NCBI RefSeq assembly: GCF_008831285.2
Contig: NC_045139.1
Span: 6,418,204-6,482,203, forward strand
Length of the DNA: 64,000 nt
Reading direction: 5' to 3'
Source of the DNA: Nymphaea colorata
Lineage: Eukaryota; Streptophyta; Magnoliopsida; Nymphaeales; Nymphaeaceae
The first letter of the stretch is position 1. Every line of letters begins with the position of its first letter. Position numbers and translations under genes: made by a program. The notes beneath the pieces were generated by a model, which worked only from the letters and a program-made list of their open reading frames with translations, was not told the DNA's origin and made no database searches. Of this stretch, positions 13,511-64,000 are shown one piece after another.

Positions 13511-16123
13511 AGTTCCCTTCCCTTGACTCTTTTTCTCTCTCCCTCTATCTCCCCTTCTCAACCCTTGCCCCTGGCCTTCGCCTACTCCAGCCTGACGGTC
13601 GCCGGTAGCGTCGACCCAGGCTGGTTCCCCTCTTTCCGTTGCTTTTGCTTTGGGTTAGTGCCTGGTTTAATATTTTCGCTTTTCGTTTGGTTCAATGCCC
13701 CACTTGACCAAGGGTTCTCAGACTTGTAGGTTGTGCTCTGCTGTTCAACAAAAGAGTTGTGCGCGAGCAAGAATTTATAGATATCAATGCGTTCCCTAGA
13801 GCAAAAATATGTTCATATTCTTTTCGTCTCCAGAACTTCCTTCTGCAATCTGGAGAAAACCCCTTTTTCCGTAACTCACATGAGCGGAAATATTATGATA
13901 TCTTATTTTCCTTTATAACTGATTGGTTCATGACAGCAATCACCTCTAGTTCAGTTACTTGTCTTGAGCATTTTGTTCGTATATTGATCACTTTTGCGTA
14001 ACTGTGAACTGCCCTTGTGTGTCTCGGGTGTCCTTTCCTTGATCTAATTGACATAAATTATGCTAGTGGCGAATTCTACTTGTTAGGTTCACGCTTGATA
14101 TAATTTTAAGCTACTCGACAAATATCCTGTATCCTGTCCTTTTACCTTGTTCGGTAAAAAAAGAAAATGCTGTACAACTTGTGGTTTGTAACTCCTGAAC
14201 TTGTTATACATTGAAAGAACTTATTTCTTCATGGTTGGTTGACAAGTCTGCAATGTTTCTAGCTCAAAAACCTATTCTTTAAATAATAATAATAATAATA
14301 ATAATCTTTGGTTACTCGAGCCATGGTCTGTTTGTGCATTTGAAGTTTTAATTTACTTTCCTTACCTGTTTAATTTACTATGTGGCTTCCAAGTTGTGGA
14401 AGATAGCACCGGTAGTTTCTGACAGGGAGTCTCATGTCCTTGGTTGCTGGGCTTGATAGCTTGACTGCTAGAGTTACACTATCTTTGGCCAAGAGATCTC
14501 ATGCCTAAGTCTGGCAGCTGACTACTCTAGGCACCATTTTCTTGCCGATAGGAATGGTGGAAGCTCGATCTTCGTTCAGCCTATTTAAGCGTGGTGATAA
14601 GTTCAGGAAAGCAGATAAACAATAATTAGGCTAAAAACATCAGCTTACTAGCCCCAGAGCTGGTTGACATCGCAAACTCATGTCACCTTCCTTTGTTTGA
14701 ACTTTAGCCATATGCATTGACACTCTAGAATCTGAGATGTGAGCTTAGACTTAGTAGCATGAAAGATCTCAAGGCTTGAGGCCATAATGTTTTGCCTTTG
14801 GTTAGTGTATCTTTCATATTTAGGTATCAGGTATGTGTTGTATCATCCAGGTTTCCTTGTGATTGTTCACTCAGATGTGCATAAAAATGAAAATGTTCCT
14901 ATGGTAAAAAATCCAACAAAATGTTACATTATGCAGTTTGGTACAGGGGAAGCAAAGGCAATACCATGGATACAGCTTCACTCAAGGCAACAGATGGTTG
15001 GACTCATCTGGGCATCTGAAAGGGTGATCTTGTTGCTTGGCCTACCAATCTTGGACGCACGAGAGTCCTTGGCTTGTTTATGTATCTCTTATTAAATGCG
15101 CAACAACGGCTCTGTACAATGGATTTGCCAAATTTGTGCAGTTATCTAGCAACTGACTCTGAATTGCTAAGGTTCGTCTTCTTGCATTCACTGTTCTATC
15201 TATTTTCTGCAAGCTTATCCTATTACATTTGGCTGGTGGCTGCAAATATTTTCAAAATTACTAGGTCAAAACTCTGAACATTCAAAAATTATAAATCCAT
15301 TTCCACATGCATGCAAAAGGAAGACTGACATGTAGTTAATTTGTGTGTATGTGGCCCGGATGAATAATTTCACATTTTTAAGGTGCCATTTGAGAGCATA
15401 GTTTTTAGTTTTTACTTTGCATGACCTCCCACTATTTTGAGTTTATAATTTCTACATCCTGGGCAAACTCAATTTTATGAAAGATATGATCTGACCATTC
15501 ACTTGTGATTCTGATTTATTTCATGTAGGCTGCGAAAGGTTGCAATGCTGGTAGTAGTTTTCAACTTTTCATTGCTGCAGCAGCATGAGAATCAATGTTT
15601 GGCTTCTTAACAGAAGTTGTAATTACAAGTTAATTCCCTGTGTTGGAAAAATTGATAGGTGGTTCAGCTCCACTGGGGAGGCATCTCATGTTGGTGAGTA
15701 CCTTTGGTTGATGGGAAGAGCTTGCCACAAACCAGTTGTACAGTACTGTGGTGGCAGTGCAGAAATAGGTTGTGTTTTTGTTTCAGCTTCACTGGTGCAA
15801 CCCCAATAAACAGCTTGATGTAGGTGATCCATGCTTCATGCACTCATTCATCAAACATGGTTTTTTATTTCAAGAAATTTATTTTATGCCCATCAAACGC
15901 AGGTTAAAAAGGCAGAGCTTAGAGATTATTTCTTGGAAGAGGTTTTGGGTACTTTATTTCATGGATTTTCATCCAAAGATTTTATTTTTGTGGCCATCAA
16001 ACATGGCCTTAGGTCTATATGCCTGTTAAGAAATTCCACTGTGTTTCTATTTCTGGACATTCGTCTAAGAGTTGACAACCATTCTCACATCTTCTTCAGA
16101 AACCATGAATTTTGATCTTGACC
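13511..16123 (+). other. Leader block of unit 1 (PPR 5' UTR or intron region), conserved in units 2 and 3
   Basis: From about 13900 this block aligns by eye with 25130-27070 and 33660-36060, which marks the head of each duplicated unit. It contains an (AAT)n tract at about 14284-14305. A short open frame from 15585 reads KLIPCVGKIDRWFSST; the start and core of that frame persist in the other two copies, but the ends drift. I recognise no protein family in it. Confidence 0.6.
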
Positions 16124-18619
16124 ATGAAGAATGTGGCATCTTTGGTTTCTGCATGCTGGCTACCTTCCAAACGTCTGCAGCTATTGTCTTGGAGCTCTGT
16201 AGCAGAATCAGTTCTACCGCTTCACATGGAAGAAGAAGTACCTTTCTTCGATTTCTCTGGCGGAGGACACTGTTCAGAGACTTTGAGCATGGTTGATACT
16301 CGAGCTATGGGACGCCGCTATGCTGAAGAGTTACAGGACTGCATTGAGATGGGTTCCTGCTCAAATGCGAGAATCATCCATGCCCACATCATAACTTCTG
16401 GGTTCAATGCCAGAAGCTTCATCCTGAATCGCATCATTGATGTTTATTCAAAGTTTGGAAGATTGCACGATGCACGTAAGTTGTTCGAAAAAAGGCTCCG
16501 CAGGGATGTAGTTGCCCATACGACGCTTATCGCAGCATACTCGAAGCATGGGCAAGTGGGAACAGCAAGAGAATTATTCGATGGAATTCTCATCCGTGAT
16601 GTTGTTTCGTACAATGCTATGATTTCAGGCCATGTTCAGAATGGACAAGGTTATTCTGCCATACAACTCTTCCTTGAGATGGCCAGGAATGAAGTCCGGC
16701 CTGATGATTTTACGTTCACCAGTGTGCTTAGTGCCTGCGGTAGCGTAACAGATAAGAACTCAGGGATGCAGGTTCATTCTCGGTTGGTTAAAGCTGGATT
16801 TGGAAGAATTGTGTCTGTTGGTAATGCTTTGGTTTCGATGTACATGAAATGTGACTTGGTGGCTTCTGCTCGTCAAGTATTTGATGAAATGCCACAGAAA
16901 GATGAGTTCACTTGGATTACTGTCATTACTGGTTATGTCAAGTCCGGCAATCTTGAAGCTTCTCGCCAAGTGTTTGATGGAATGACTAAAAAATTTCACT
17001 TGGCTTGGAATGCAATTATTGCTGGTTATGCACAATTTGGATGTTACAGGCAAGCACTCGAATTGTTTGGGACCATGCTGGAGGAAGGGATAAAGCTTGA
17101 TGAATTCACATTCACGAGTATTCTTAGTGCTTTTGCCAATTGCGGGTTCATTCGGGAAGGTATGGAGGTTCATGGATATATACTGCGTAGGGAAACAAGA
17201 TTGTCATTGCATGTCTGCAATGCCCTTGTTTCATTATACACGAAGTGTGGAAAATTGGATGTTGCTATGAAGTTGTTTAATCGAATGCCAGAAAGAGACC
17301 TTGTCTCCTGGAATGCCATTGTGTGTGGTTATGTTGATTCTGGTGAGGTTGAAGTGGCAAGGAAACTTTTTGAAAAGATGAGCGAGAGAAGTGTGCTTAC
17401 TTGGACTGTGATGATCTCTGGATATGCACAACATGGATATGGTGAGGAAGCACTAAAGCTATTTAACAGAATGCAGCACGAGGGAACAAAGCCTTGTGAC
17501 TTCACTTTTGCTGGTGCATTTACTGCTTGTGCAACACTTGGAGCTTTAAGGCATGGCCATCAGCTTCATTCTCAGCTCATTCAACTTGGCCTTGATTCGA
17601 GCATTTCTGCTGGTAATGCATTGGTGACCATGTATGCCAGGTGTGGAGCTGTTGATGCTGCCCATCAAGCTTTCTGCACAATGCCACATGCAGATTCAGT
17701 GTCTTGGAATGCAATGATTGCAGCTCTAGGGCAACATGGGTTTGGGGAAGAGGCATTGGAACTCTTTGGGCAGATGTTGCATGAAGGAATTGAACCTGAT
17801 CGTATCACTTTCCTCACGGTTCTCTCTGCTTGTAGCCATGCTGGTCTTGTGGAAGAAGGATGCAAATACTTCAAGTCTATGAGTAAAGATTATGGCATAA
17901 GGACTGGTTCAGATCACTATGCACGTTTCATTGATCTATTAGGTCGGGCAGGACGAATAACAGAAGCTAAAGAAGTAATTGAATCGATGCCTACCGAGCC
18001 TGATTCATTTGTATGGGAATCACTTCTAGCAGGTTGCAGGATTCATGGCAACATGGAACTTGGAATTCAGGCAGCAGAGAAACTTCTTGAGCTGAGGCCA
18101 GAGCATGATGGAACATATGTGTTATTATCCAATATGTATGCTGCAGTTGGCAAGTGGGGAGAAGTCGCAAGGGTGAGGCAAGTGATGAAGGACAGAGGAG
18201 TGAAGAAAGAACCTGGATGCAGTTGGGTTGATGTGGAAAACCAAGTTCATGTTTTTTTGGTGGATGATACTGCTCATCCTGAGGTCAAAAAGGTCTACAT
18301 TTTTCTGGATATGTTGGGTGCAGCAATCAGGAAGTTGGGTTATATACCTGATACAAAGTTTGTGCTGCATGATGTGAAGCTCAACCAGAAAGAATACAGC
18401 CTGTCAACTCACAGTGAGAAGCTGGCCATTGGTTACGGGCTTCTGAAATTGCCTGCGGATTCTCCAGTTAGGGTCTTGAAGAATCTAAGGATCTGTGGGG
18501 ATTGCCACAATGCTATTAAGTTTATAACGATGGTGGTGAAGCGGGAGATAATTGTGAGGGATGGAAAGCGATTCCACCATTTCAGAGATGGAGATTGTTC
18601 CTGTGGAAATTACTGGTGA
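16124..18619 (+). CDS. PPR-DYW protein, probable organelle RNA-editing factor
   Basis: A single-exon frame of 831 aa from ATG 16124. An array of P, L and S type PPR motifs (for example VSYNAMISGHVQNGQGYSAI) is followed by E/E+ motifs and a C-terminal DYW deaminase domain: zinc-site HSE at residues 763-765, CGDCH at 791-795, CSC at 825-827 and the terminal triplet NYW. Family knowledge: DYW-PPRs bind organelle transcripts and convert C to U. Motif order and wording closely resemble Arabidopsis At1g25360 (about 790 aa); orthology is an inference. Start choice: ATG 16124 adds a Lys/Arg/Ser-rich N terminus suited to organelle import. ATG 16226 (797 aa) is the only early in-frame ATG kept in the duplicated copies, and ATG 16289 is also possible. 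An out-of-frame ATG at 16105 opens an overlapping upstream frame ending at 16296. Confidence 0.93.
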   Translation: MKNVASLVSACWLPSKRLQLLSWSSVAESVLPLHMEEEVPFFDFSGGGHCSETLSMVDTRAMGRRYAEELQDCIEMGSCSNARIIHAHIITSGFNARSFILNRIIDVYSKFGRLHDARKLFEKRLRRDVVAHTTLIAAYSKHGQVGTARELFDGILIRDVVSYNAMISGHVQNGQGYSAIQLFLEMARNEVRPDDFTFTSVLSACGSVTDKNSGMQVHSRLVKAGFGRIVSVGNALVSMYMKCDLVASARQVFDEMPQKDEFTWITVITGYVKSGNLEASRQVFDGMTKKFHLAWNAIIAGYAQFGCYRQALELFGTMLEEGIKLDEFTFTSILSAFANCGFIREGMEVHGYILRRETRLSLHVCNALVSLYTKCGKLDVAMKLFNRMPERDLVSWNAIVCGYVDSGEVEVARKLFEKMSERSVLTWTVMISGYAQHGYGEEALKLFNRMQHEGTKPCDFTFAGAFTACATLGALRHGHQLHSQLIQLGLDSSISAGNALVTMYARCGAVDAAHQAFCTMPHADSVSWNAMIAALGQHGFGEEALELFGQMLHEGIEPDRITFLTVLSACSHAGLVEEGCKYFKSMSKDYGIRTGSDHYARFIDLLGRAGRITEAKEVIESMPTEPDSFVWESLLAGCRIHGNMELGIQAAEKLLELRPEHDGTYVLLSNMYAAVGKWGEVARVRQVMKDRGVKKEPGCSWVDVENQVHVFLVDDTAHPEVKKVYIFLDMLGAAIRKLGYIPDTKFVLHDVKLNQKEYSLSTHSEKLAIGYGLLKLPADSPVRVLKNLRICGDCHNAIKFITMVVKREIIVRDGKRFHHFRDGDCSCGNYW

Positions 18620-19271: not shown

Positions 19272-19363
19272 GATGTGATTAAAAATACATTCATTATAAT
19301 GGATTGGATAATGCATCGGGTGGATGTGATTGAATACATTCATCATAATGGATCGGATGAACC
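19272..19363 (+). repeat. Two-copy tandem repeat, about 50 bp
   Basis: GATGTGATT followed by ATACATTCAT, ATAATGGAT and GGAT occurs twice in a row with a few differences. It lies downstream of the PPR gene and has no coding content. Confidence 0.7.
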
Positions 19364-20462: not shown

Positions 20463-22707
20463 TGGTTTCAAATTGAAGCTTTACAAAATAATCAAACAAA
20501 TTGAACATTTAAGACAGAATGCCTGAGTGAAGACTCTTTGTGGTCAGCTTGATAGGGGAAAATGATATCAGTCACTATTATAATTTTTTTTAAGATTCGA
20601 GGCTGCATTGAAAGGTGTGCTTTAGAAGATAGGTCTGTGAATCTTAAATCTACATTACATGTTCAAAACGGTGAATTTAAAGTTGAATTGGGGGCTAGGG
20701 TCCTACCTTAAATCCGTGAATATGAGTTCATAGTGATGTAATGTTAGATCACTACAGATCTCATATCCAATGTGAAACAAACACACCCATAAAAATGGAC
20801 AAAATTGTATTATGTCTACTACCTGTAAAAGAGAGGTAAAGTGGAAGAATTGATAATTAGCCATCCTATGTGCATTATTGAAATGCTGAGCCACAAACAG
20901 AGGACGTCTTTGTCAGATTCCAATTATTGGAAGAATGCATCTAAAGTTGCTACATGAAATTTGAAAAAAATATGCAACAAATCAAAAAAGCAACAAAATT
21001 TTTCTTGTTAGTGGATCGGTTTGGATCAAAAAAGGTTTTTCCAACCTTTATCTTGGCATAATTTGACGTATTTGTAGTTCCGGCTACTGTTTCCAAGAGG
21101 AAAAAGGAGCTAACTAAAGCCCCATTTTTCCTTGCTCAATTTGCGCAAAGTCGAACCAGGAATTGGCCTTCTACCAGTTGATTAACCGAACTCAGGTGAT
21201 TCCACTTCGCCATTACTATCTCAGCCTGTACATAAGAAAAAAGACTACATGTACATCCTATGGCTGATTCTGCTATTCAGCTGACTTGGCCATGAACGAG
21301 CAAAAAAAAAAAAGTTTATTATATATACATGCTTTTAGAAAAGATAAAATCTAAGAAAAAAACATAACAATTAGAATATTTAAAAGTATGGAACTAAAAT
21401 GGGTCAGATCCGTTACAGGCATCGTATCGTCTTTGCTGTACCAGCTCCGGTTTTGAAGCCGACTTGCCGCATACATGTCGAACTAAGCTTATAAATCACA
21501 TTCACATGGTCAAAGCTTATACAAACAACTTACTACCTTGTTGATATTATAGGGATGGTTATACGTAAATCAGTTCATATCGTATATGTGATATACAAAA
21601 TTTGAGCAGCCCTTCAAAAATCAGGAACTGAAGGAGATCGACTGAAAGTGAACCTTTAATTTAAGTATGAAGGCAATAAAACAAAGCGAAAAATTAAGAC
21701 ATGACGCTCAAGTGAAAACATTTTCTTTTAACTTCCTCGTTTAATTGGCCGGGTTTCTCGATATTTGTGGCTATATACGATCAAAATAACTGAAAATGGC
21801 GAAGTTCTATTATTTTGCGCGTTATAGAAAGAAAATTTCTTTAATTGGAAACGGACAGAGGTAATGGCATGGAATTATACGGATGCTGTTTGCATTATTG
21901 AATGGTGGACCACAAGTGACACCAGCTTTGTCGGCTTCCAATTACTGAGAAAGGATGCATCCATAATTGTGGAAAGATTCATGAAAAAAATTTGCATTCC
22001 AAAAGCTAACAAGAGTTTCAAAAGTGCGAGGCATTGAATGAGACGTTTACAACCCATCATCCAAAAAAGAGAGCCGGCTCGGAATCTTTTTTCCTCTGAC
22101 TCACGAGTTTAGGGCAGATTCAGGATGGTGATGGTGCACATTCATCTTGGTACTGTGTTGATTGTTTCAAGAGTTCTCGAGTCATAATACGTTTGGCCTC
22201 TGCAACAAATTTTTTTTAACTCCCTCCCCTACTGAAAAGGCCAGAGATTTCCCTCTCCGTGCTCAAAAAATGTTTATGTTTCCACTGGATTCGTGTTGAG
22301 TTGACCTACTAAGTAAGGGAAGATCGAAATTAAAATCAATTTGGCCAGGAGCCGATTCAGCTTCATATTCAGCTGGATTGGCCATAGATCAGCAAAAAAT
22401 ATTATTGTACATATCTTTCTAAAGAGAACACACCAAAATAATTAAATAGGAAGGCTGACAAATTTTTAAAAAATATCAAAATCATGGAGCAAGGCACATG
22501 GCAACTTGAATGGGCAGATGATTTCAATCAAAGTCGAATGCTGATCAAGTTTTACAACATTGGAAGCACGCAAGCTTCAGATTCCGAATTTTGGTACTTA
22601 TTAATGATAAATGAACACCGAGGCCCTCCCCCACCCCATGCATCGTTGAAACTTACATTATTGAGTAGTGTGACAGTGTGGCGGTAAAAGGTGACTAATG
22701 AATGGCC

Positions 22708-22715
22708 TATAAATT
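22708..22715 (+). promoter_or_regulatory. TATA box of BURP1
   Basis: TATAAATT lies 78 bp before the BURP1 ATG, in the block AATGGCCTATAAATTGAG. The same block stands before BURP2 and BURP4. Confidence 0.7.
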
Positions 22716-22785
22716 GAGCGGCTTGCCCATCGAGAAGGATCAGAGGACACTCTCTTCTCATCCAGTGCTATCCATACCCTGCACA

Positions 22786-22929
22786 ATGGCCTCAACCTTT
22801 TGCTTCCTCCTCTCTATCTTTCTGGTAAATAGATATCCTGCCATGTTAATCTTGGTTTTCGAAAGAAACCATCGCTTCTAGTTAGCTAGATGATGTGCTA
22901 GACTTCTTCCTTCAGTCTGCTGTCAGCTG

Positions 22930-22965
<36 letters not shown>

Positions 22966-24297
22966 TTGTGTTTGTGTGTGTCTTTCTTTTGTTCTGTTGT
23001 TTGTAAGGGTGAGTGTGGTTCATGGATTAATGATGCACGTGAGCGTCACAAATTGGTGTCTTTGTACTTCATGTTTCAACTAAACCATCTAAGTTTATGT
23101 CAAAATATAAATATTCAAACGAATAAGCATCGAAGTGCATATTATTGCACTGCTACTAAAATTTCGGCGTATTTTCTGCTGCGTTCTTAACTGATGATGA
23201 ACTGCCTGCACTCTTGACATCCTAGACGATTAGCTCTGATATATCTTAAATTTGCAGCTTGTAGTTGCGACCAGCAGCAGCGAGATGAGTCCTGAGGACT
23301 ACTGGAATAAACTGCTGCCCAAAACTCCCATCCCCACGTCTCTCCACGCCTTCTTGCCGACGACAGGTGATTCTATTAAGTACTTTTTATTTTTTTGGTT
23401 TCCTAAATACAATCTTATTAACTCATATTATGTCATGTCATGTCATGTCGTTCAGGCGCCAGTTATCCTTCGCAAAAGAAGCATGCTGCCCTTTCCCTGC
23501 TTGCGAGTAAAAGCATTTTATGGCAAAGTTACAAATTCGGGACAACACCGGATCAGGTAAAGAAAGAGCACGACACTGGTTTCCTCTTCTTGAAAGAGAA
23601 CTTGAAGCCAGGCAGTAAGACCAAGAAGCTGGACTTGGAGAAGAAGGAGCAAGAGACCGCGAGGGAATGGCCGGCACTGCTGCCTCGCCAGGAGGCAGGC
23701 ACCTTTCCTTTCTCAACTTCCAAGCTCAGAGACATCCTCCAACGCTTTTCCATGGATCCCAACTCTGCCGACGCACTGACCGTGAGGCACACTCTTGAAA
23801 ATTGCGAGAGGGGAGCCAATGAAGGGGAAATCAGCTATTGCGCTACATCCTTAGAATCCATGGTCGACTTCGTTGTGTCCCAGCTCAAGACGAATGATGT
23901 TCAGTTGCTAACCTACTCGTTCTTGAACAAGGAAGAAAGAGAGACCAAGAGCAGAGTGTACACAGTTCAGCCCGGTGTGGTCGAATTGGCCGCGCAAACC
24001 ACAGTGGCGTGCCACGTCCAGTCGTACCCGTATGCAGTGTTCTACTGCCACACGGTTCCGAAAACCAAAACTTACATTGTTCCATTGGTTGCTGAAGAAG
24101 ATGGCACCAGAGTGAGGGCAGGGGCTGTTTGCCACACTGACACCTCTTCATGGAACAAGAACCATGCCGCTATGCTGGCACTAGGAATCAAGCCGGGAAC
24201 TCCTCTTTGTCATTTCCTTTCTCATGGTCACGTTGTGTTTGTTCCCAACTCTGCTCTTAAGATGTCCACAGTACGCCGGTCCCCTACTCCCGCCTAG
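22786..24297 (+). CDS. BURP-domain protein 1
   Basis: Exons 22786-22824, 23258-23366 and 23456-24297 give a 329-aa protein. Exon 1 (MASTFCFLLSIFL) plus the start of exon 2 form a signal peptide. Exon 2 carries YWNKLLPKTPIP, the short conserved segment usual behind the leader in BURP proteins. Exon 3 is the BURP domain with FLFLKENLKPGSK at its start and the Cys-His pairs at 235, 247, 275 and 301 (spacing CH-x10-CH-x26-CH-x24-CH). There is no repeat region between, so it is closer to the short USP/BNM2-like members than to RD22 or PG1beta; the subgroup is an inference. Secreted or cell-wall location is expected. Compared with BURP4 the stop is bypassed by a one-base loss, adding a 12-residue tail. 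A poly(A) signal AATAAA lies at 24452-24457. Confidence 0.93.
22934..22962 (+). repeat. (GA)n tract in BURP1 intron 1
   Basis: About 14 GA dinucleotides, 110 bp after the exon 1 donor. Similar GA tracts sit at the same place in BURP2 (about 30235-30272), BURP3 (about 42904-42913 and 42975-42994) and BURP4 (about 59628-59640). Confidence 0.9.
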
Positions 24298-25129: not shown

Positions 25130-27070
25130 TAAGTTGATTGATTCATGTAATTGATTGATTCATGTGCAGTCAGCTCCAGCTCAGTTACCCGTCTTGAGCA
25201 TTTTGTCCGTATATTGATTGCTGCTGAGTGACAGTGAACTGCCTTTGTGTGTCTCGACTCTCGGGTGTCTTCTCCTGATCTAATTGACACAACGTATGCT
25301 GGTGGCGAATTCTGCTTGTTAATTTCATGCTTGATATAAATTTAAGCTACTCAACAAATATGCTGTCCTTTTACATTGTTTAATGGAAGAAGGAAAAAAA
25401 AGAAAGCATGCTGTTCAACTTGTGGTTTGTAACTTCTGAACTTGTTGTACATTGAAATAACTTATTTCTTCATGGCTCTTGTCCCCTTCCTTTGTTTGAA
25501 CTTCGGCCCTATGCATTGACACTCTAGAATCTGAGATGTAAGCTGAGATTTAGTAGCATAAAAGATCTCAAAACTTGAAGCCATAATGTTGATTGCCTTT
25601 GGTTAGTGTATCCTTCATATTTTGGTATGTGTTGTACTTGTACCATGCAGGTTTCCTTGAAATTGTTCACTCGGGTCTGCATAAAAATGTACATTATGCA
25701 GTTTGGTACAGGGCAATACCATAGATACAGCATCACTCAAGGCAGCGGCAGATGGTTGGGCTCACCTTGGTATCTGAAAGGGTGATCTTGTTGCTTGGCC
25801 TACCAATCTTGGACGCACGAGGGTCAATGGCTTGTTTATGCATCTTGTATTAAATGGGCATCAATGGCTCTGTACAATGGACTCATTGAAGCCTATGGAT
25901 TTGACAAATTTGTGCAGGTATCTAACAACTGATCCTGAATTGCTAACGTTCGTCTTCTTGCATTTACATTTGGCTGGTGGCTGCAAATATGTTCAAAATT
26001 ACTAGCCCAGATCCCTTAACATTCAAAAGGAGCCACCTTCAATTGTTATAAATCCTTATCCACATGCATACACCACAAAGACGGACATGTAGTTTATTTG
26101 AGTATATATGACCTGGTCGAATAAATTCACATTTTTAAGTGCCATTTGCCAGCATAATTTTTGCTTTGCATGACCTCCCACTATGTTGAGTTTAGAATTT
26201 CTACATCCTGGGCGATCTCAATTTTATGAAAGATATGATCTGACCATTCACTTGTGATTCTGATTTAGTTCATGTAGGTCGCGAAAGGTTGCAACGCTGG
26301 TAGTATTTTTCATTGCTGCAGCAACATGAGAAGCAATGTGTGGCTTCTTAACAGAAGCTGCAATTACAAATTAATTCCGTATGTTGGAAAAATTGATAGG
26401 TGGTTCAGCTCCACTAGGGAGTCATCTCATGTAGATGAGTACCTTTGGTTGGAGGGAAGAGCTTGCTACAAGCCAGTTATACAGTACTGCGGTGGCACAA
26501 AATAGGCGGTGTTTTAGTTTCAGGTTCACAGGTGCAACCCCAATGAACAGCTTGATGTAGGCTACCCATGCTTCCTGCACTGCTAATAAACAACTTGATA
26601 CTGTAGATGTTATGCTTAATGGGTGCCATTTTCTTCTAAAATGTTGGATTCATTGTAAAAATCTGTCTATCTGCCCGACAGTAATAAAGGCTATATCCAC
26701 GAGGTTATTTTGTTTCTTATGGTTTTGGAGCAAAGCAGCTTACATCAGAATTTCCGAGGATGGTCAATTATGGCAAGGGTAAGTGTTCGGATCCATGAAT
26801 TTGTTTTCTCGTTTATTATACTTGGTATTTTATTTCAGGAAATTTATTTCACGCCCATCACAAGCATCTTAAAAAGGCAGAGCTTAGAGATTATTTCTTG
26901 GAAGAGGTTTTGGGTACTTTATTTCATTGAGTTTTGAACGAAGATCTTATTTTGTGGCCATCAAACAGGGCCTTACGTTTATATGCCTGTTCAGAAATTC
27001 CACTCAGTGTCTATATTTCTGGACATTTGGCTGTGAGTTGGCAAACCTTCTCACATCTTCTTCAGCAACC
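25130..27070 (+). other. Leader block of unit 2 (copy of 13.9-16.1 kb)
   Basis: Aligns by eye with the unit 1 and unit 3 leader blocks, including the GTTTCCTTGAAATTGTTCAC stretch and the frame around KIDRWFSST. It is closer to unit 3 than to unit 1 at many sites. No intact gene. Confidence 0.7.
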
Positions 27071-27297
27071 ACGAATTCTGATCTCGACCGTGAAGAATGC
27101 GGCATCTTGGTCTTTTGCTTGCCGACTACCTTCCAAACGGCTGCAGTTATTCTCTTGGAGCTCTCCAGCAGAATCTGTTCTACCACTTCAGATGGAAGAA
27201 GAAGTACCTTTCTTCGATCTCTCTGGCGGAGAGACACTGTACAGAGTCTTTTGAGTATCGCTGATGCTCGAGCTATGGGACGCCGCTACGCTGAAGA
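27071..27297 (+). pseudogene. PPR-DYW 5' remnant of unit 2
   Basis: Matches the first 225 bp or so of the intact PPR region (16105-16329), with the motif RRYAEE at the end. It stops at GAAGA (27293-27297), where the sequence switches to material matching 20935 onward of unit 1. The equivalent of 16330-20934 is absent (about 4.6 kb), so the whole PPR body is missing. The ATGs matching 16124 and 16289 are not ATG here, while the one matching 16226 is kept. Confidence 0.85.
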
Positions 27298-29029
27298 ATG
27301 CATCTAAAGTTGCTACATGAAATTTGAAAAAAAACAAATGCGATAAATCAAAAGAGTACCAAAATCGATCGCTACGTAGTTAGTAGATCGGTTTGGATTA
27401 AAAAGGGTTTTCCCAACCTTTTGCTTGGAATAATTAGATGATTTTGTAGTTCCGGCCACTGTTTCGCGGAGGAAAAAGGAGCTAATTAAAGGCCAGCTTT
27501 TCCCTTGCTCAATTTACACAAAATATTATGGAGTGGGAACCAGGAATTGGCCTTCTACCAGTTCAGGTGATTCCACTTCGCCATTACTATCTCAGCTAAG
27601 AAAAAAGAGTACATGTACATATTCATAAAAAATGTGTCTGCTGAATCTTTTGAGTGAATAAAAAGATTATTTCATTGTCTAGCTGAGAAACGAAGCCCTC
27701 AGTTTTTCTTCATCCATCTTGAGTATTAGGCCTCGTTTTTGTGCATGAGGGTAACACCTCAGCTATGCTTCAATTTAGTCAATGGCTGGTTCTGCTATTC
27801 ACTAGACTTAGCAAAAAACGTTTATTATATATACATGTTTTTAGAAAGATAAAATATAAGAAAAAATAAAAAACAATTAGAAAACTTTAATATTACTTAA
27901 AAGTATGGAACTAAAATGGGTCAGATCCGTTACAGGCATCGTATCGTCTTTTGCTGTACCAGATCCGGTTATGAGGCCGACTTTCTGCATACATGTCCAA
28001 CTAAGCTTATAAATCACATTCACATGGTCAAAGCTTATACAAACAACTTACCACCTTCGTGATATTTTAGGGATGGTTATACGTAAATCAATTCATATCG
28101 CATATGTGATCTACAAAATTTGATCGGCTTTTTAAAAATCAGGAACTGAAGGAGATCGACTTAAAGTGAAGCTTGAATTTATATATACAAGTAACAAAAC
28201 AAAGTGAAAACCTTTTCTTTTAACTTCCTTGTTCAATTGGCAGGGTTTCACGATATTTGTGGCTAGATACGATCAAAATCACTGAAGATGGCTGAAGTTC
28301 TACTATTTTGAGCATTATAGAAAGAAATATCTATGACTGGAAATGGACAATGGTAGTGGCTTGGAATTGTACGGATGCTGTTTGAATTGTTGAATGGTGG
28401 AGCCACAAGTGACGCCACCTTTGTCGGCTCCCAATTGCTGAGAAAGGATGATCTAAAATCGTGGAAAAATTTTTCGTTTCCAAAATTTAACTCCCGCCCC
28501 TGCTGAAAAGGCCAGAGACTCCCCCTCCCCTCTCGAAAACTCTTTCCACTGGATTCGTGTTGAGTCGATCAACCAAGTTATGGAAAATCGGAATTAAAAT
28601 CAATTTGGCGAGAAGCCGATTCAGCTTCATATTCAGCTGGATTGGCCATAAATCAGCTAAAAGTATTATTGTACATATCTTTCTAAAGAGAACACACCAA
28701 AATAATCACAATAGGAAAGCTGACAAATTTTAAAAAATATTAAAATCATGGAGAAAGACGCATGGCAACTTGAATGGGCCGATGAATTCAATCAAAGTCG
28801 AATGCTGATCAAGTTTTACAACATTGGATACACACATACTCCAGTTCCCAAATTTTGGAACTTATTAATGATAAATGAACACCGACGCCTTCCCCCACCC
28901 CACAACACATGGAACACTGTTATGCAATTTTATGAGCTGTTGTTTTCACTCACGTCCTCATTTTTTCTTCCTATCGTTGTAATCTACCAAACTTTGTCAT
29001 AACAGATTTTCTTTTTATGTAGCTTTAAT
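27298..29029. other. BURP2 upstream region
   Basis: Matches 20935-22620 of unit 1, including the frame around MEQGTWQLEWADDFNQS (here from 28748). That frame recurs in units 1 and 4 but is short, has no recognisable domain and loses its end. From about 28907 the sequence departs from unit 1 and enters an insertion holding an LTR remnant and a minisatellite. No gene seen. Confidence 0.6.
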
Positions 29030-29473
29030 TGTAAGATCATTTAGTGGGCCGGCATATGTGTATGAGGAATTTCAGACATTATGGTTGTCTTAAAATAAAT
29101 ATCCACTTAAGTGATTGCATTTTGAGATATTACGTCATTTTAGATGGTATGTGGTAATTTTGAAATGTATAGATACCAGCACGCAATTACGGACTCTTTG
29201 ATGGGATAAATCTGTAATTGTCCTCATTATATAATAGTAGTGGTCCCTGAGGTCGTGCGATGGTTGCCTGAAACATTGGTTTCTAGGGTTTTCCTCTTCC
29301 CCATCTGAGAGAGACCTCAAGCGCGCCGCACGTACCCTGGAAGACCCTGCTGCGATCTTTCCGTGCACCAGATCAGATGGATTCAGGTACACTTCCGCTT
29401 TAAGTTTAAGGTTTTGTTTAATTCAATTATTTAGCATGAGCATGATCCTATTTAGGGTATATACGTTTGGTGG
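29030..29473 (+). repeat. Incomplete solo LTR, same family as the unit 4 Copia element
   Basis: Starts TGTAAGATCATTTAGTGG and matches the reverse complement of the LTRs at 49415-49890 and 54876-55351 for most of their length, then fades near 29470. It is more diverged than those two LTRs are from each other, so it is older. A fossil with no internal region. Confidence 0.8.
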
Positions 29474-29482
29474 TTGAAAAAA

Positions 29483-30083: not shown

Positions 30084-30232
30084 ATGGCATCGACTTTTTG
30101 CTTCTTCCTCTTTATTTTTCTGGTCAATAGATTTCCTGCCATCTTAATTTTGGTTTTCGAAAGAAACCATTTCTTCTAGCTAGCTAGATGACGTGCTAGA
30201 CTCTTCCTTCAATCGGCTGGCAGCTGGCTAAG

Positions 30233-30273
<41 letters not shown>

Positions 30274-32799: not shown

Positions 32800-32840
<41 letters not shown>

Positions 32841-49414: not shown

Positions 49415-49890
49415 TGTTGGGATTTCTCCCCATAACGCATATACAAAACCAAAGCGCATATGCCCTAAACAAGATCATGCTCATGCTAAATCATTGAATC
49501 AAACATAACCTTAAACTTAAAGCGAAAGCGTACCTGAATCCATCTGATCTGATGCACGGGAAGATCGCAGCAGGGTCTTCCAGGGTACGTGCGGCGCGCT
49601 TGAGGTCTCTCTCAGATGGAGAAGAGGAAAACCCTAGAAACCAATGTTTCAGGCAACCCTTGCACGACCCCAGGGACCACTACCATTTTATAATGAGGAC
49701 AATTACGGATTCAACCCATCAAAGAGTCCGTAATTGCGTACTGGTATCTATACATTTCAAAATTACCCCATACCATCTAAAATGACGTAATATCCCAAAA
49801 TGCAATCACTTAAGCGGATATTTACGCTAAGACAGCCATAATGTCTGAAATACCTCATAGACATATGCAGAACCACCAAATGATCTTACA
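49415..49890 (-). repeat. 3' LTR of the unit 4 Copia element
   Basis: 476 bp. On + it reads TGTTGGGATTTCTCCCC to GATCTTACA. A purine tract of the minus strand abuts its inner edge (ATCTCCCACTT on +). Confidence 0.93.
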
Positions 49891-52800
49891 ATCTCCCACT
49901 TGGGCCAAATATGTCTTAATACATTCAGACATTATACAAAACCTTAAGAGCTCATAACTGTTATCTTATTAAACGTCATTTCACCAATCTCGTCCATGAT
50001 CATATCAACACAAAACCAAAGCGGCTTTCGCTATATCAAAAGTTAGTTAAACCTTCAATGATCACAAATGTTAACATAACCAATGACATAGATCTGATAT
50101 GGATGTATAGCATGAGAATTACATGCGATGTGATTACAACATGTCTATTCTCAACTGGTCCAACTTTAAAACTTTATGGAGATCAAAACATAGACACAGA
50201 ATGGAACCAAAGAACTTTAAACTTTATTTTGCAGAAAACTGAATATGTGTCCATACATTAGAGCAAACAAAATACAAACTCCCACTAAACCAGCACATCA
50301 TCCAATGATAACACCCTGATACGAACAACATGTTCGTGAAAGACCTTATGTGTTAAACCCTTGGCAAGCGGATCCGCAAATCATAGAGTTTGTCTCAATA
50401 TGCTCTAAAGACACCTGACCATTCTGTATCATCTCTTTAACAGCCCAAAACTTAATGTCGATGTGCTTCGACTTTGACAAACTGGGGCTGTTATAAGAGT
50501 ACATGACTGCTGAATTATTGTCACGCAACAACCTTAGTGGTCTTTTTATACCATACATAATGTGCAGCCTCATGACAAAATTCCACAATCACAAAACCTG
50601 ATTGAATGTCATTATCTTGGCACCCAGCAAAGTCAGAATCTAAATACCCAATGATCTCCCACTGGTCTGACTTCCTGTATGTGAGCATAAAATCTTATGT
50701 TCTTTTAAGTACATCAAAACTCTTTTGGCTGCTTTCCAATGACCCATACCAGGATCATTTAAGTATCTGCCTAACATTTCAATGATAAATGCAATATCCA
50801 AACGAGTACAAACCTGAACATAAATAAGGTTTCCCACAACAGACGAATAGGGAATCCTTTCAATTTCCTTAGATTCGATTTCACTTTTAGGGCACTGTTT
50901 GAGACTAAACTTGTCTCTATTAGCAACTGGAGTATCTTCTGGTTTACAATCTTTCATGTCAAATCACTGAAGCACCTTATCAATGTAGTCCATTTTGTGA
51001 TAATCCAAGAATACCCCGAGAATGATCTCGAAATATTTGGATCCCCAATACAAAAGATGCACAACCAAGATCCTTCATGTCAAATTGTGTTGACAAAAAT
51101 TCTTAGTTTCATGCAATATGCCCACATCATTACTATTCAGCAATATATCATTGACATATAAAACCAAAAAGATAAATTTGCCCCACTGAAGTTTTGATAT
51201 ACACATTCATCAACCATATTAGTTTCGAAACCAAATGAAACTATAACTTGATGAAACTTGTAATACCACTGACGAAAAGCTTGCTTTAGCCCATAGATGG
51301 ATTTCTTGAGTTTGCAGACCATTTTCTTTGCATCACCTAAAGCAAAGTTTTCTGGTTGCACGATATATACCGTTTCATCAATGTCTCCATTTAGAAACGT
51401 TTTCTTAACATCCATATGATGCAGCTCTAAGTCAAAATGAGCCACAAGTGTCATTATGGTCCTGAAAGAGTCTTTCGACGAAACTTGAGAGAAAGTCTCT
51501 GTATAATCAATGTCTTCCTTTTGAGTAAAGCCCTTAGCGACAAGATGTACCTTATACCTTTCGATGTTACCTAATGAATCCCTCTTGGTTTTAAATATCC
51601 ATTTACAACCAATGAGTTTCACACCTTCAGGCAAGGGAACAACTTCCCGTACGTCATTATCCATCATGGACTTTATTTTCTCATTCATGGCATCCATCAA
51701 CTCAAGAGATTTAGAACTCTTTATTGCTTACTGGAGGTTGACAGGATCATCTCCATTAAGCCCATATCAACATCATGTTCTTGGAGATAGACAAAATAAT
51801 TTAAAATTGTATTTCTCCTCTTTCTAGTGGATCTCCTCAGTGACATCTGTACTTGATTTTCTTGAGGTTGTTGAGTTTGTTCTTCAGTATGGAGATCGAC
51901 ATCATTGTCTTCTTCTGAATAGAGTGGACTAAGGTCCCTCTTCAAAGGCAATGATTCTAACCTGATCACCTCCCCAAACTCAATATCCTCAAAGAAATGG
52001 GCATTTCCCTTTTCAAAGAAAGACTTACTGAATGGATTATAAAACTTATAATCCCTTAATGTTTGTTCATTTTCTCTTTATACATTCAATGCAAACATTA
52101 AAGTCTGCAAAATCAAGGGACTCAAGAATTCCTTTTGACATAAGGCTTTATATTCTCTTTTCAGAGATATGTCCTAAGTGCCAATGCCACAACATAATAG
52201 AATTCCAATTTGCTAATTTTACTTTTAGTACCACCATGCAAGATTTCATTATATGAAGCAACCATATCAAGCAAATAAAGGTTATCGCTACTAGACAAAG
52301 AATTAGTGACAATCAAATTTGAGTACAGAAACAACTTAAATTTACTTCCTCCAAATGAACAATAATAACCAAACTTGTTCAATGAGGAAATAAGAACCAA
52401 ATTCCATCTAAAAGATGGTACCACATAAGTTTCTGTCAAATTCAAATAGCAATCAGTTTTTAACAATAACCAAAAATCTGCTATGGCTTCAACCTTCGCC
52501 TTCTTGCCATCGCCCACATAGATGAATCTTTCAGCATCATTTGGCGTTCGACAATTTAGGTAGCCTTGCATAGACACTATGTGAGTAGTAACACTGAATC
52601 TACCCACGAAATGTTTCTGGGTACTAAAGTTAAATTAACTTCAAAACAAACCAAAGTGAGAAGTGTACCCTCCATTTCACGCCATGCGTGATACTCAGTA
52701 CAATCCTCCTTCATATGACCTTCACCCTTGCAAAAGAAGCAGCCTGATAGGTCTTCCTTATGCTTCTTCTGTTTCTTAATGGATGATTGGTCAACTGCAA

Positions 52801-54861
52801 CTTCATTAACAGTCTTTCTTTTCTTACTTGAAAAAATCGAATCATTTAACTCAGGAATAGTATTCAAAATTTACAAATATCATATAAGCAGAACTCACTG
52901 TACAAAGAACAAACCAAAAATACCAAACATGCTCACAATCAATACATGTACAAAGATGAAACAACAAATATAAATGAATTTAAATACAATGGCCTAAATT
53001 CCATCACAAGGTACCGGTGCAACGTTAATATCCAATCTTTGGATTGAAATACTAACTGCAAGTGGTATTCTTGGTCAACAATGAATATGAATAATTAAAC
53101 CTGTCAAACAACGAGCCTATCTTTGGATTGACTCGCTATTCACATGGAAACCTGAAAAATTATCACATATTCATTGCCCTATATACTTAAACCTGACCAA
53201 ACAACAATCCTCCTTTGGGCTGATCATTGTTCGCATGGATCAAGTATACTATCATCTAATGTTTAAAACAAGCAAATTCGTACAACATAGGTCACTTTGG
53301 CGACATAAAGTACAAACGTACTCATTTCAAATAACAGACATGGCCAAAGATCAAATTAATAATCCAAACATTCATCTAAAGCACATACACAATTTTAATA
53401 ACGTGCAAAACATGATGCATGAATTAAAATTTACACACAAATTTGCCCTATATTGATTCCAAAACCAAAATGATCCAACAAAAGGGGCCCAAAATTGTCC
53501 AAAATTTTATAAACCGATATCATAATCGTGCTTAAGAGGGTCAAGAACTACTGAATCGGCCCTAAAATGGCCCGTATCGTTCTTAAACCACAATTAGAAC
53601 ACCCACATACCCCTACATAGGGCTGAACCAGTCTAAAAATTGGACGTACCAGTCAAAAATAGACCGTATCGGTTCTAAAACCCAATGAACCAGTTAAAAA
53701 ATGGCAAAAATAGGTTAAAAAACTGAATGAACCGGTCCTGAAAGCCCTGAATCGGTTAAAAAATCAACTTAATCGGTTCCAAAACTGAATGAACCGGTTC
53801 TGAAAAGCCCTGAATCGGTTCGAAAATGGTTCGAATCGGTTCTGAAATGAATGAACCGGTTCCAAAATGGTTCGAATCGGATCTGAAAGGTCCGAACCGG
53901 TCTGAATCGGACCGAATCGATTCTGAATCGTATTGAACCGGTCTGAAATCGAATGAACCGGTTCGAGTCTTTTCCAAAACCGGTTTTAAAAATGAACCGT
54001 TTCTATAAAATTAAACCGAATGGATACGGGTCGGGTCCGACAGGACCCGACCCGGTCCGAAAAATCAAACGGGGCTCGTGCGCAAGGCGGCAAAATGTTT
54101 TTTTTTTTTTTTTAAAATCTGATGGACCCGGATCGGGTCTGTCACGACCCAACCCGGGCCGACCCGCCTGCTCGACCGCGCGAGCGGTCGCAGGCGTCGC
54201 CTCCACCGCTCGCCTGCCGAACGGCAGGCGGGCGGTGAACCTCCACCGGCAGGCCACCCAACACCGTGGGTGGCTGCCGGCGGGTGCCGCCGGCGTCGTC
54301 GGACGCCGGCCATCACGATGGCGGGCCGACGCCCGCCGGAAACCGGCCGATTCAGGTCGGTTTCCCTTTCTGCAACAATCTGCCCCTTTCTGAAGTTGGA
54401 CGACTGAAACGGCAGCCAGAACGCCGCCGGCAAGGGATTGGGTGGGCATCAGTTCGTCGCACGGCGCCGACCGGCGACGGTGGACTCCCCGGCGAGGCTG
54501 GATGTGGCCAAACGGAGGTGGGCGATGCCCTTTTCTCCCGCCATCGTCCCTCGCTGCCCTTCCTTCAAAACAAAAAACGAAGGTAGGGCGCACAGAAGGC
54601 GGCCGGTCGTCGCACGAACCGGCCGTCGCAGCCCTCCTACCCCGCCAGAACGCCTGACTCCAGCCGTTGCGCCCCTCCCTTCTCTCCCTTTCTCCGGTTG
54701 CAACGGAAGCCGACGGCTTCCATCGCCCATGCGATGGAGGCCATCGCCCCCCGTCCAGTTTTTTTTTTTTTTTGAAAACTTGCAGCCGAAGAACAGGGAA
54801 GAACCGAATGAGGAGATGCACAAAATCATTAAAAAATTCAACCATTTAACGAAGAACATAG

Positions 54862-54875
54862 GCTTTGATACCAAA
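54862..54875 (-). other. Primer-binding site of the unit 4 Copia element
   Basis: On the minus strand TTTGGTATCAAAGC follows the 5' LTR, a variant of the tRNA-Met primer site used by plant Copia elements. Confidence 0.75.
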
Positions 54876-55351
54876 TGTTGGGATTTCTCCCCATAACGCA
54901 TATACAAAACCAAAGCGCATATGCCTTAAACAAGATCATGCTCATGCTAAATCATTGAATCAAACATAACCTTAAACTTAAAGCGGAAGCGTACCTGAAT
55001 CCATCTGATCTGATGCACGGGAAGATCGCAGCAGGGTCTTTCAGGGTACGTGCGGCGCGCTTGAGGTCTCTCTCAGATGGAGAAGAGGAAAACCCTAGAA
55101 ACCAATATTTCAGGCAACCCTTGCACAACCCCAAAGACCACTACCATTTTATAATGAGGACAATTACGGATTCAACCCATCAAAGAGTCCGTAATTGCGT
55201 ATTGGTATCTATACATTTCAAAATTACCCCATACCATCTAAAATGACGTAATATCCCAAAATGCAATCACTTAAGCGGATATTTACGTTAAGACAGCCAT
55301 AATGTCTGAAATTCCTCATAGACATATGCAGACCCACCAAATGATCTTACA
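54876..55351 (-). repeat. 5' LTR of the unit 4 Copia element
   Basis: 476 bp, matching 49415-49890 at about 97-98 percent by eye and, more distantly, the remnant at 29030-29473. Confidence 0.93.
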
Positions 55352-59579: not shown

Positions 59580-61863
59580 ATGGCCTCAACGTTTTGCTTC
59601 CTCCTCTCTATCTTTCTGGTAAGCTCAGAGAGAGAGAGAGTTGCGCCTGGTGTGTGCGTGTCTTTATGATCTTAATGTCTTTCATTCTACATGATATATT
59701 GCTCCATGCATGCATGTTTTAAGCCATGACTCCCTTTCCCATGCAGCTTCTAGTATACCGCGCGCTCTCTCTTATCTCTTCCATGTCTTTAGTTTCATAT
59801 TGCACACATGCACAAGCTTCGCAAAGGAAACATTATTGACTGCACAAACAAGTACCGGAGAAGTGAAATGGTTACTATTCTTCTTACCCAGTCTTGACAA
59901 AACTAGGTTTTATTAAAATCAAGTTTTTAATGCGTTTATAGACTTTGTTTTTTCGTGTGGGTGACATGGTCAAAACCTGGTTTTTGAATAACCAAAGGTG
60001 ACCAGGTTTTCCCACACTTTTTTACAAAACCAGGTTTTGTCAAAGTTGTATTTCCTTCAAACCTAGTTTCGATGACATCCAAACACTTCCGAATCCTGAT
60101 TTTCAAGTTACAAACCCTGGTTTCGAAGTGCCGCTCAAACACGCCCTAAAATGAGATGCTAGCTAGGATCAGTTTATCTCATGGATGATTAGTTGATTAT
60201 AAGATATATATTGCAAGCTTTTGAAACTGTGATGGCGTGAATGATTGCCTTTAGGATCTTATAATTAATCTCGTATGTGAGGATCTATTACGTTACCTCA
60301 AGGGCTTATCTCTTAGAGATTGTTGTTTTAGCAAACGGGAGATTTAGGCCATGCTTGATAGTTTCAGATCTCAGGTCCGAGGATCTGAGACTGCTTTAAA
60401 AATTATGCCGTGTAAGATCCTATGTTGAAAAACAGGGGATCTCAATAGCATGGGTCTTCAATTCATGTTATATGAAAATTTGTAAGATCCTATCGTGATA
60501 CCTTGTGCATCTTAAATTTGTAGCTTGTAGGTGCGACCAGCAGCAGCCGGGAGATGAGTCCAACGGACTACTGGAACAAACTGCTGCCTAAAACTCCCAT
60601 CCCCAAGTCTCTCCACGCCTTCCTGCCTACAGGTACTGATTCTATGAAGTGTGGGGAAGAAAGAATTTCCCTTTTTATTTTTCTGGTTTCCTACATACAG
60701 CCATAACGCAAATCATCAGCAGCCAAAAATTAATGCCACTGCTTTAGTATTGGTATTTTTCGAGAGCATCCTTTCCTTTCCTAATTTTCCAAAGTCATTC
60801 GTTCTACTGGACTCCTGTTAGCTTAATCCAGACAATAATTGTGACACTCAGTAAAGATCAGATACAGAACCATTTTCAAGATCATTACGGTGGCCCCCGT
60901 GCAAAATACCGAGGAACTTTATTTAATGTTTGGCTTCATTGTTCATTCAGCCAACAGTTGTTCCCCCCTGTTCCGCCCCCGTTTGTGTACACGTAACAGT
61001 TGTTCGTTTCGATTTGTTCATGCGTGTTTTCTTTTCTATGGACGTCACGTCGTTCAGGAACCAGTGATGCTTCCCAGAGGAAGTATGCTGGCCATTTGCT
61101 GCTCGACTGTAGAAGCATTTTCTGGGAACAATACGAATACGGGACAACACCGGATCAGGTAAAGGAAGACCATGAACTCAGTTTCCTCTTCCTGGAAAAG
61201 GACTTGAAGGCAGGCAGCAAGACCAAGAAACTGGACTTCGAGAAGAAAGAGCAAGAGACTGCGGGGGGCTGGCCGACGGTGCTGCCTCGCAGGGAGGCAA
61301 AGACCATTCCTTTCTCAACTTCCAAACTCAGCGACATCCTCCAACGCTTTTCCGTGGATCCAAACTCTGCCGACGCTCTGATCGTGAGGCACACGCTCGA
61401 GGATTGCGAGAGGGGACCCAATCAAGGGGAGACCAACTACTGCGCTACGTCCTTAGAATCCATGGTCGACTTCGCTGTGTCCCAGCTCAAGACCAATGAT
61501 GTTCAGTTGCTAACCTACTCGTTCGTGAACAAGGAAGAAACGGAGCCCAGAAGCAGAGTGTACACGGTTCAGCCCGGTGCGGTCGAATTGGCATCACAGC
61601 ATGCGGTGGTGTGCCACGTCCAGTCGTACCCGTACGCAGTGTTCTACTGCCACACGGCTACAAGGACCAAATCTTACATCCTTCCATTGGTTGCTGAGGA
61701 AGATGGCACCACATTGAGGGCAGGGGCGGTGTGCCACATGGACACCTCTTCATGGAACCCGAACCATGCCACTATGTTGGCGCTAGGAATCAAGCCGGGA
61801 ACTCCTGTTTGCCACTTCCTTTCTCATGGTCACCTTGTATTTGTCCCCAACTCTGCTTCTTAA
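59580..61863 (+). CDS. BURP-domain protein 4
   Basis: Exons 59580-59618, 60524-60632 and 61058-61863 give 317 aa. Signal peptide MASTFCFLLSIFL, segment YWNKLLPKTPIP, and BURP domain from FLFLEKDLKAGSK with all four CH pairs. The protein ends FVPNSAS with TAA directly after, the likely ancestral end, since both other C-terminal forms derive from it by one change. Intron 1 (905 bp) is longer than in BURP1/2 and contains a short GA tract and a foldback insertion (59893-60045). A poly(A) signal AATAAA lies at 62035-62040. Expected secreted to wall or apoplast. Confidence 0.93.
59893..60045. repeat. Small foldback element in BURP4 intron 1
   Basis: CTTGACAAAACTAGGTTTTA at the left is the near reverse complement of AAACCAGGTTTTGTCAAAG at the right. 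Inner motifs AAAACCTGG and CCAGGTTTT also pair. About 150 bp, not present in BURP1-3 introns. Likely a MITE. Confidence 0.6.
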
Positions 61864-62126: not shown

Positions 62127-62300
62127 GCGAGAGAGACCAAGGGCAAAGGGTACACAGTTCAGCCCTGTGGCGCCGAATTTGGCCGCACAAACCGTGTTCT
62201 ACTGCCACACGGTTCCGGAAACCAAAACTTACGTTTATTCCGTTGGTTGCAGAGAAAGATGACACCATTGTGTTGTGTGAGGCCGGGGGCTGTGCGCCAC
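62127..62300 (+). pseudogene. BURP domain fragment downstream of BURP4
   Basis: Matches about 31284-31484 of BURP2: GAGAGAGACCAAG, TACACAGTTCAGCCC, GTGTTCTACTGCCACACGGT and GCTGTGCGCCAC in order. It is missing the segment with the first CH pair and has several small indels. It is closer to BURP1/2 than to the adjacent BURP4. No upstream exons. Confidence 0.85.
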
Positions 62301-64000
62301 CGCTAAGATTTACACTCGTTATGGATAAATCATTTAAAATTGTAACGTTTTCTTATCTGTCTTTAAAATTGTAAAGGGTTTTATGAATTTTAAATCATAC
62401 TCTGTCAAATGTACACATCATTTTCAATTCTAAAATCAAAATTGCAAACCATTAAACGTAAATGGAAATTAGAATTGAGGTTTTCATTTCAATTCCAATT
62501 TAAGGTGAAATTTTGCGTCTAGAATTTAAACTCTAGAATCAAAATTCAAAGTCATCAAACGCCTTCTTAAGAAGCATTACAAACTTTTTGACTTCCATAT
62601 TTTTTAACTTATTGTCCATTTTATCTCACTGGGATCAATGACTCAAATGGTTCCATCAAACTCTGGCAGGGTTTGGTACCTACCGGTTTATAGGGGCCTC
62701 TAAAACATTAGCATGTGAATTTTTTTCAAAGATTATAGGGGCCAAGATCGAAATATTTCCATTCTATCTTCGAAAATGGGCGAACCTGAAAAACACTGAC
62801 ATGTGAGTTTGGTTTTGTTGCCGGGCGCTTATTTTCCACCCAAAGTTTAGGTAAGAGGTAAAGTGGATCAGAGAAAGGTTGCTTGCCTCCTCCTCCTACT
62901 CATGTCTTCAAACAGAGAAGGCGTATTAGTATTATCATCTCCTGCTGGGCACTAGCTTTTAGCGGGGATCCAAATCATGTGTTAATCGAGAATTATTTGT
63001 ATAAGATTGTTAGTTACACCGTGGCTTCAGATTTATATTGGATCTATTGTTAAAATTAATTGAACTACAAGTTAAAACATGCCAGTGAGGTGAAGTTTCA
63101 CAAACCGGCATGTTTTAGGTTGATTCATCTCTCTCTCTCTCTCTCGTCCATTAATCAGAGCTTAGTCTATTCATAATTCTAAGCATCAAGAAACTTGCAA
63201 TATGTATAACGACGAGGTCAGTCCCCACAGCTTGGTTAGTAGATTCGGAGGATCCAAAGAAAGGAAGGGTTGAGAGGCAACACTAATAACACTGAGAATA
63301 CAAGATCAACACATTTCCATTAACATGACATCCGGTGGACTCGATCGGGAGGATGCACATATCACCATCTAGCAGGATATCAAGCTGGGTTTGGGTTGGA
63401 AATAGAGGCAAAAGAGCCACAAATTTGCAAAACCTTCGTCACCGGGCCCGACCCATTCACATTCCTAGACTCTTTCCTTCATTTTAAGTTGAAGCCAACG
63501 GGAAAATATTTCTCACTCAATGAGTTTGAATCATTGTTTCGTGGGAACTAGCTTGCCTGCTCTCTCTCCAACCTCACTTCACCCGATCCCTCCTTGCCCA
63601 TTTCTGCAAACCCTGTCGTTTTTCTTTATGATATCTTTCTAAAGAAACAGACAAGAAACTACCATACTAATAATAACTTATTTCCCCCCCAAGAGTTGCC
63701 AGCGGTTCCCCATGAACATTGTATGTATTTATTAAGTGGGTGTGTGATGGCTTAGAATTTTGATTCTGGAATAAAAATATCCAGAATCAAATTTCCATAA
63801 TTTTTGTTTGAGTTTGATACTATGGAATTTTGATTCTAGAAATTAAAATAACTTGTTTGAAAAAAAAGGGAATTACAATTTTAAAATTCATGAATTATGA
63901 CTTTCATGCCCTGTGCCCCAAAGAGAGATGAAAGGATATCAGAATTTTGGAATCATAATTCCACCCCCTAGGATGAGATCATAATTCTAGAATTTTGATT
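62301..64000. other. End of the array and AT-rich flank
   Basis: 62350-62600 and 62670-62930 match the unit 3 tail at 47450-47690 and 46820-47900, closing unit 4. 63750-64000 holds another copy of the AT-rich foldback with GATTCTGG..CCAGAATC. A (CT)n tract lies at about 63128-63146. I see no gene. Confidence 0.6.

Follow-up and report, generated by a model that had tools for sequence, protein, structure and literature searches.

The genome of Nymphaea colorata contains a 64,000-nucleotide stretch (hereafter the window; C2:6418204-6482203, in an assembly of 407.8 Mb and 783 contigs) in which PPR sequence precedes a BURP gene in four of four segments. This arrangement raises the question of whether the two genes are copied together as one unit, as the initial annotation had proposed; a limited search of the open-access literature found no description of a PPR-BURP array. 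We consider it probable that BURP genes multiplied here in a local tandem array and carried a PPR gene along as a passenger, with one segment, U3, being a recombinant in an otherwise segment-copied array.

We compared the window with itself at an E threshold of 1e-10 and again at 1e-3, and observed broken forward diagonals that join U1, U2, U3, and U4 (Table 1). Four parallel diagonals of 7-14 kb had been predicted; none was continuous over that length. At the 1e-3 threshold, the matches covered 5446 of 11227 bases for U1 v U2, 7203 of 11227 for U1 v U3, 3262 of 11227 for U1 v U4, 4502 of 8576 for U2 v U3, 2423 of 8576 for U2 v U4, and 4218 of 14263 for U3 v U4, that is, 28-64% of the first-named unit and less than two thirds in every pair. 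Identity between units extends to non-coding DNA (leader, 87-93%; spacers, 74-97%; 3' UTR, 64-94%); therefore, copying went beyond the coding exons, and the initial annotation was right that segments, with their non-coding flanks, rather than single genes were copied. As a control, a letter-reversed U3 matched U1, U2, U3, and U4 over 0, 0, 119, and 0 bases, respectively. On the plus strand, U1 matched nine other 12-kb stretches over 0 bases in all nine, and U3 matched 99 bases in one of nine, although this is a weak control: six of the stretches belong to a distant BURP array and one holds an inverted relic (see below), both on the minus strand. The order leader, PPR, spacer, BURP is the same in U1, U2, and U3. 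U4 has neither a leader, which is found in only three of the four units, nor the PPR 5' part, and begins within the PPR 3' end. The window thus holds four linked segments arranged head to tail, as proposed, but these are unequal and do not amount to four copies of a single unit.

Table 1. Segments and features of the window (window positions)
Feature	Position	Strand	Details
U1	13916-25142		segment of array (self-comparison)
U1 leader block, non-coding	13916..15844	+	matches U2 25148-26581 and U3 33725-35156
Stretch unique to U1 inside its leader	14237-14676	+	
U1 PPR-DYW gene	16112..18619	+	835-codon open frame from TTG; Pfam
U1 spacer and BURP upstream region, non-coding	20930..22785	+	pieces common to other units
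U1 BURP gene	22786..24297	+	exons 22786-22824, 23258-23366, 23456-24297; 329 aa predicted
U2	25143-33718		segment of array (self-comparison)
U2 leader block	25143..26962	+	89% to U3 33719-35503
U2 PPR remnant	27078..27298	+	parts of first 73 codons, two frames; remainder deleted
LTR-like insert, U2 spacer	29028..29471	.	inverted relative to the U4 element, 91-92% to both of its LTRs
U2 BURP gene	30084..31645	+	exons 30084-30122, 30566-30674, 30804-31645; 329 aa predicted
U3	33719-47981		segment of array (self-comparison)
U3 leader block	33719..35503	+	self-comparison
U3 PPR pseudogene, nearly full length	36076..38570	+	compared with U1
U3 BURP gene	42760..44880	+	exons 42760-42798, 43437-43548, 44069-44880; 320 aa predicted
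U4	47982 to about 62300		segment of array (self-comparison)
U4 head, PPR 3' fragment	47982..48292	+	codons 733-835; stops and frame break
Copia-type LTR element, U4 spacer	49415..55351	-	LTRs 97.5% alike; RVT_2 2.9e-42
U4 BURP gene	59580..61863	+	exons 59580-59618, 60524-60632, 61058-61863; 317 aa predicted
Decayed piece of an additional BURP exon 3	62130..62300	+	68% to U1 23938-24135
Tail pieces	62338..62909	+	common to U3 tail 46820-47931

The Copia element in the U4 spacer has a 5-base target duplication, ACAAC. We looked for a target-site duplication of the U2 LTR-like insert and found none; a 130-base tandem repeat of nearly three copies (window 29478-29868) adjoins this insert. In addition, pieces of the BURP upstream region repeat inside a unit (window 20871-21990, 42143-42802, and 57561-58624), and an additional exon-1-like copy in U3, at about 42143-42234, is frame-shifted. 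We read these repeats as small duplications nested in the regions that precede the BURP genes.

PPR sequence is present in all four units, as the initial annotation had it, and is intact only in U1: one of the four units in the window, and one of the five copies found when a further copy outside the window (U0) is counted. Only U1 combines PPR repeats, an E motif, and a complete DYW domain (Pfam PPR_2, 2e-95; E_motif, 2.1e-25; DYW_deaminase, 2.8e-39 over 93 of 93 positions). The first ATG of its frame lies at 16124, and a later ATG, at 16226, is conserved across U0, U1, and U3. Compared with U1, the U3 copy has six in-frame stops and 12 indels, 10 of them frame-breaking. U0, a 90% match at C2:6346769, is a pseudogene with four stops and eight indels relative to U1. 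The junction of the U2 deletion with the spacer lies at a common 5-base GAAGA.

We then counted PPR changes in a three-way comparison of U0, U1, and U3 and obtained non-synonymous:synonymous ratios of 25:21 for U1, 62:29 for U0, and 92:49 for U3. The ratio on the U1 branch was lower than either of two neutral expectations (p=0.012 and p=0.0005). The pseudogenes also departed from the second, uniform expectation (U0, p=0.031; U3, p=0.0007), and that yardstick is therefore rough. A direct contrast of U1 with the two pseudogenes gave p=0.13, and unique changes numbered 46 in U1 vs 95 in U0 (p=4.5e-5, unrooted). Overall, these counts suggest a constraint on the U1 PPR that is only moderately supported, and the gene is likely functional. 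We presume that it resembles OTP90. OTP90 (AT1G25360) is described as a PLS-DYW mitochondrial editing factor (PMC7076377). By domain content, the U1 gene likewise has PPR, E, and DYW domains.

The BURP models are complete in all four units, each with three exons, GT-AG introns, and no internal stop; these exon models are predicted from comparison and splice sites rather than from transcripts, and the first donor of U2 reads GTCAAT. The BURP domain (PF03181) scored above the cut-off of 27 bits in each protein, at 221-230 bits (U1, 5.3e-68; U2, 4.6e-68; U3, 1.3e-65; U4, 3.1e-68). All four proteins carry four CH pairs spaced 10/26/24 and, as judged by eye, a hydrophobic N-terminus. Members of this family are secreted and bind copper at a CH site, and we infer the same function for these copies. 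Pairwise dN/dS was 0.31-0.52, indicating that the BURP copies are under purifying selection.

To the left of the array, window 1-12409 is a receptor-kinase block, which we take to be CRK, with a Stress-antifung frame (Pfam 1e-26) and a kinase fragment. It is colinear with C2:6338793-6346300, receptor-kinase gene matches recur over C2:6.33-6.43 Mb, and repeated receptor-kinase sequences were noted across C2:6328204-6418203. A Copia element at 2492-7935 interrupts the block in the window (target duplication CTTAG; LTRs 98.5% alike). The U0 pseudogene (C2:6346304-6349177), 88 kb away, lies directly after this colinear receptor-kinase block. With the U1 and U4 BURP proteins as queries, neither the upstream 90 kb nor the downstream 50 kb gave a match, and a genome-wide Pfam search for BURP listed none in these regions. 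Downstream, an inverted relic on the minus strand (C2:6490123-6495634) resembles the PPR 3' flank, the spacer, and BURP exon 1, with no match to BURP exons 2-3.

Genome-wide, the Pfam search returned 55 BURP matches (all 65 candidates scored); for this species, 25 BURP proteins are tabulated (PMC8672867). Seven of the 55 matches form a related array at C2:17.83-17.90 Mb, whose five full copies resemble the window genes at 67-82% in exon 3 and in which no match to the window PPR was found in 78 kb. The largest cluster by this search, at C1:24.15-24.26 Mb, holds 18 of the 55 matches, some being pieces of one gene. In a protein search with the PPR, 54 of 1062 candidates were scored; among these, outside C2:6.34-6.44 Mb, the best-scoring candidate was 43% identical, and identity reached 54% in shorter matches. 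Among 12 genomic candidates for the U2 leader, the full length occurred only in U2 and U3 and most of it in U1, with pieces elsewhere, the largest being 623 bases at 77% on C3; part of the leader is therefore low-copy dispersed sequence.

Next, we asked whether the parts of each unit are of the same age, using Nei-Gojobori dS with 200 bootstraps (bootstrap ranges in brackets). For U1-U2, dS was 0.195 for PPR (0.088-0.348, 72 codons) and 0.145 for BURP (0.089-0.198); for U1-U4, it was 0.255 (0.141-0.444, 98 codons) and 0.291 (0.211-0.384). The PPR and BURP ages agree in these two pairs, as copying of whole segments would predict, and the pairs are compatible with one age and one tree per unit; the U3 pairs, in which the PPR and BURP intervals do not overlap, are not, and every conflict involves U3. 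The PPR and BURP values were 0.161 (0.123-0.204, 819 codons) and 0.458 (0.348-0.584) for U1-U3, 0.079 (0.018-0.160, 70 codons) and 0.414 (0.298-0.534) for U2-U3, and 0.066 (0.015-0.155, 96 codons) and 0.462 (0.360-0.585) for U3-U4. The short U1-U3 PPR pieces taken separately gave intervals that overlap that of BURP (5', 0.233, 0.116-0.400; 3', 0.224, 0.122-0.380), and U2 and U4 have no PPR piece in common. The dS of the U3 BURP to four genes of the distant array was 0.44-0.48, compared to 0.58-0.72 for U1, U2, and U4 (252 codons, nine genes; a fifth distant gene lies beyond 1.6 from all). The U3 BURP is therefore old rather than fast-evolving.

Trees of 12 blocks, not every unit being present in each (closest pair, 500 bootstraps, unrooted), located the change. 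U2 and U3 paired in the leader (100%) and the PPR 5' part (92%), both available for U1-U3, and U3 and U4 paired in the PPR 3' part, available for U1, U3, and U4 (coding, 82.8%; flank, 97.2%). The spacer blocks of all four units gave U3-U4 (100%), U1-U2 (98%), U3-U4 (94%), and U1-U2 (92.2%), and exon 1, exon 2, exon 3, and the 3' UTR all paired U1 with U2 (90.8%, 81.8%, 100%, and 100%, respectively). Among U1, U3, and U4, BURP exon 3 is closest between U1 and U4 (0.169 v 0.233), against the U3-U4 pairing of the PPR 3' flank. The left side of U3 is thus close to U2 and U4, its right side is distant from every other unit, and the change falls in the spacer. In a protein tree of 17 rows (four window BURPs, five from the distant array, and eight from other loci, two of them identical; two short distant matches were dropped), the window BURPs formed one clade (95/93), a grouping that finds no support in the dS values of U3.

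A history in which a PPR-BURP unit was copied whole to give four, each then eroding separately, would account for the common block order of U1-U3, the shared non-coding blocks, and the agreeing ages of U1-U2 and U1-U4. We nevertheless regard this history as unlikely because U3 joins an old BURP to a young leader and PPR, U4 has no leader, and U0 carries PPR without BURP. The same age conflict, the separate occurrence of U0 PPR and of a distant BURP array without a PPR match, and the survival of a single intact PPR copy speak against the initial proposal that PPR-BURP is the unit of duplication. Head-to-tail repeats are a known class of assembly artefact, and allelic haplotypes joined end to end by misassembly, a possibility that the initial annotation named, could produce them. 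This is very improbable here: blocks differ by 3-36% and BURP dS reaches 0.46, deletions are unit-specific, the Copia insert has its target duplication, and further pieces lie downstream in inverted orientation. That PPR and BURP are kept together by linked products or expression is barely credible despite their adjacency in four of four segments, given that, in the window, only one of the four PPR copies has escaped disruption vs four of four intact BURP frames, and that no match to this PPR was found in 78 kb of the related array.

We therefore return to the BURP array with a passenger PPR, and reason that U3, with its old BURP and young leader and PPR, is a recombinant; a single exchange would be the simplest reading of the block trees. 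We infer the mechanism and the order of events as follows. A segment of leader, PPR, spacer, and BURP would have been copied head to tail to give U1 and U2, and U4, to judge from its short PPR piece, would have arisen in the same way. Copies would then have exchanged parts at U3, whether through unequal crossover or through gene conversion, placing a young leader-PPR-spacer block before an old BURP. The extra PPR copies would have decayed by deletion, frameshift, and stop, with one deletion at a 5-base microhomology, and the array would later have been trimmed by deletion and Copia insertion. Throughout PPR decay, the BURP copies would have stayed under purifying selection.

We also considered whether the array encodes undescribed fused burpitides. 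In a fused burpitide cyclase, the core is a peptide of the same protein that starts with Q or V, ends with W or Y, and is cyclised in a copper-dependent manner; for AhyBURP, a type I cyclase, a single core is reported at the N-terminal end of the BURP domain. Q-x5-W peptides occur at that end in U1, U2, and U4 (QETAREW, QETARGW, and QETAGGW), where Q-E-T-A-x-x-W precedes P-x-LLPR (P-x-VLPR in U4), and the motif is absent from the U3 BURP. Across nine paralogues, the candidate core has a mean pairwise identity of 47%, compared to 84% and 76% for its flanks, and the N-terminal part of the proteins varies more than the candidate core (39%). The W that closes this stretch is present in all nine, and the Q in five, two of which have it at another distance. 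AhyBURP (PDB 8sy2/8sy3) and the window proteins, which carry four CH pairs, have the BURP domain in common (phmmer 3.6e-26, C-terminal part); however, QPYGVYTW is not present in the window BURP sequences, and in an HMMER alignment to 8sy2, AhyBURP residues 39 to 99 were unaligned to the window BURPs, with matches only outside. AlphaFold models of the four exon-3 proteins had a mean pLDDT of 30.5, too low to support a core, and a surface loop would look the same. We consider it very unlikely that Q-x5-W is the core in these three BURPs; if it were, tandem copying would diversify a peptide product, and U3 would have lost it.

Tandem expansion of BURP genes has been published, with 32 of 125 BURP genes being tandem duplicates (PMC6102523). 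Here, too, BURP genes have multiplied side by side, but with a PPR gene caught in the copying. The locus appears to reflect the usual local copying and decay of genes, a known process to which it adds a case, and the PPR appears to be a passenger where two expanding arrays meet rather than half of a PPR-BURP unit. It offers a datable passenger gene between a receptor-kinase array and a BURP array, with PPR copies in both; every extra PPR copy found is broken, and the four BURP neighbours are intact. Gene order and shared flanks, then, are not proof of a single duplication unit, and the ages of the parts need to be compared.
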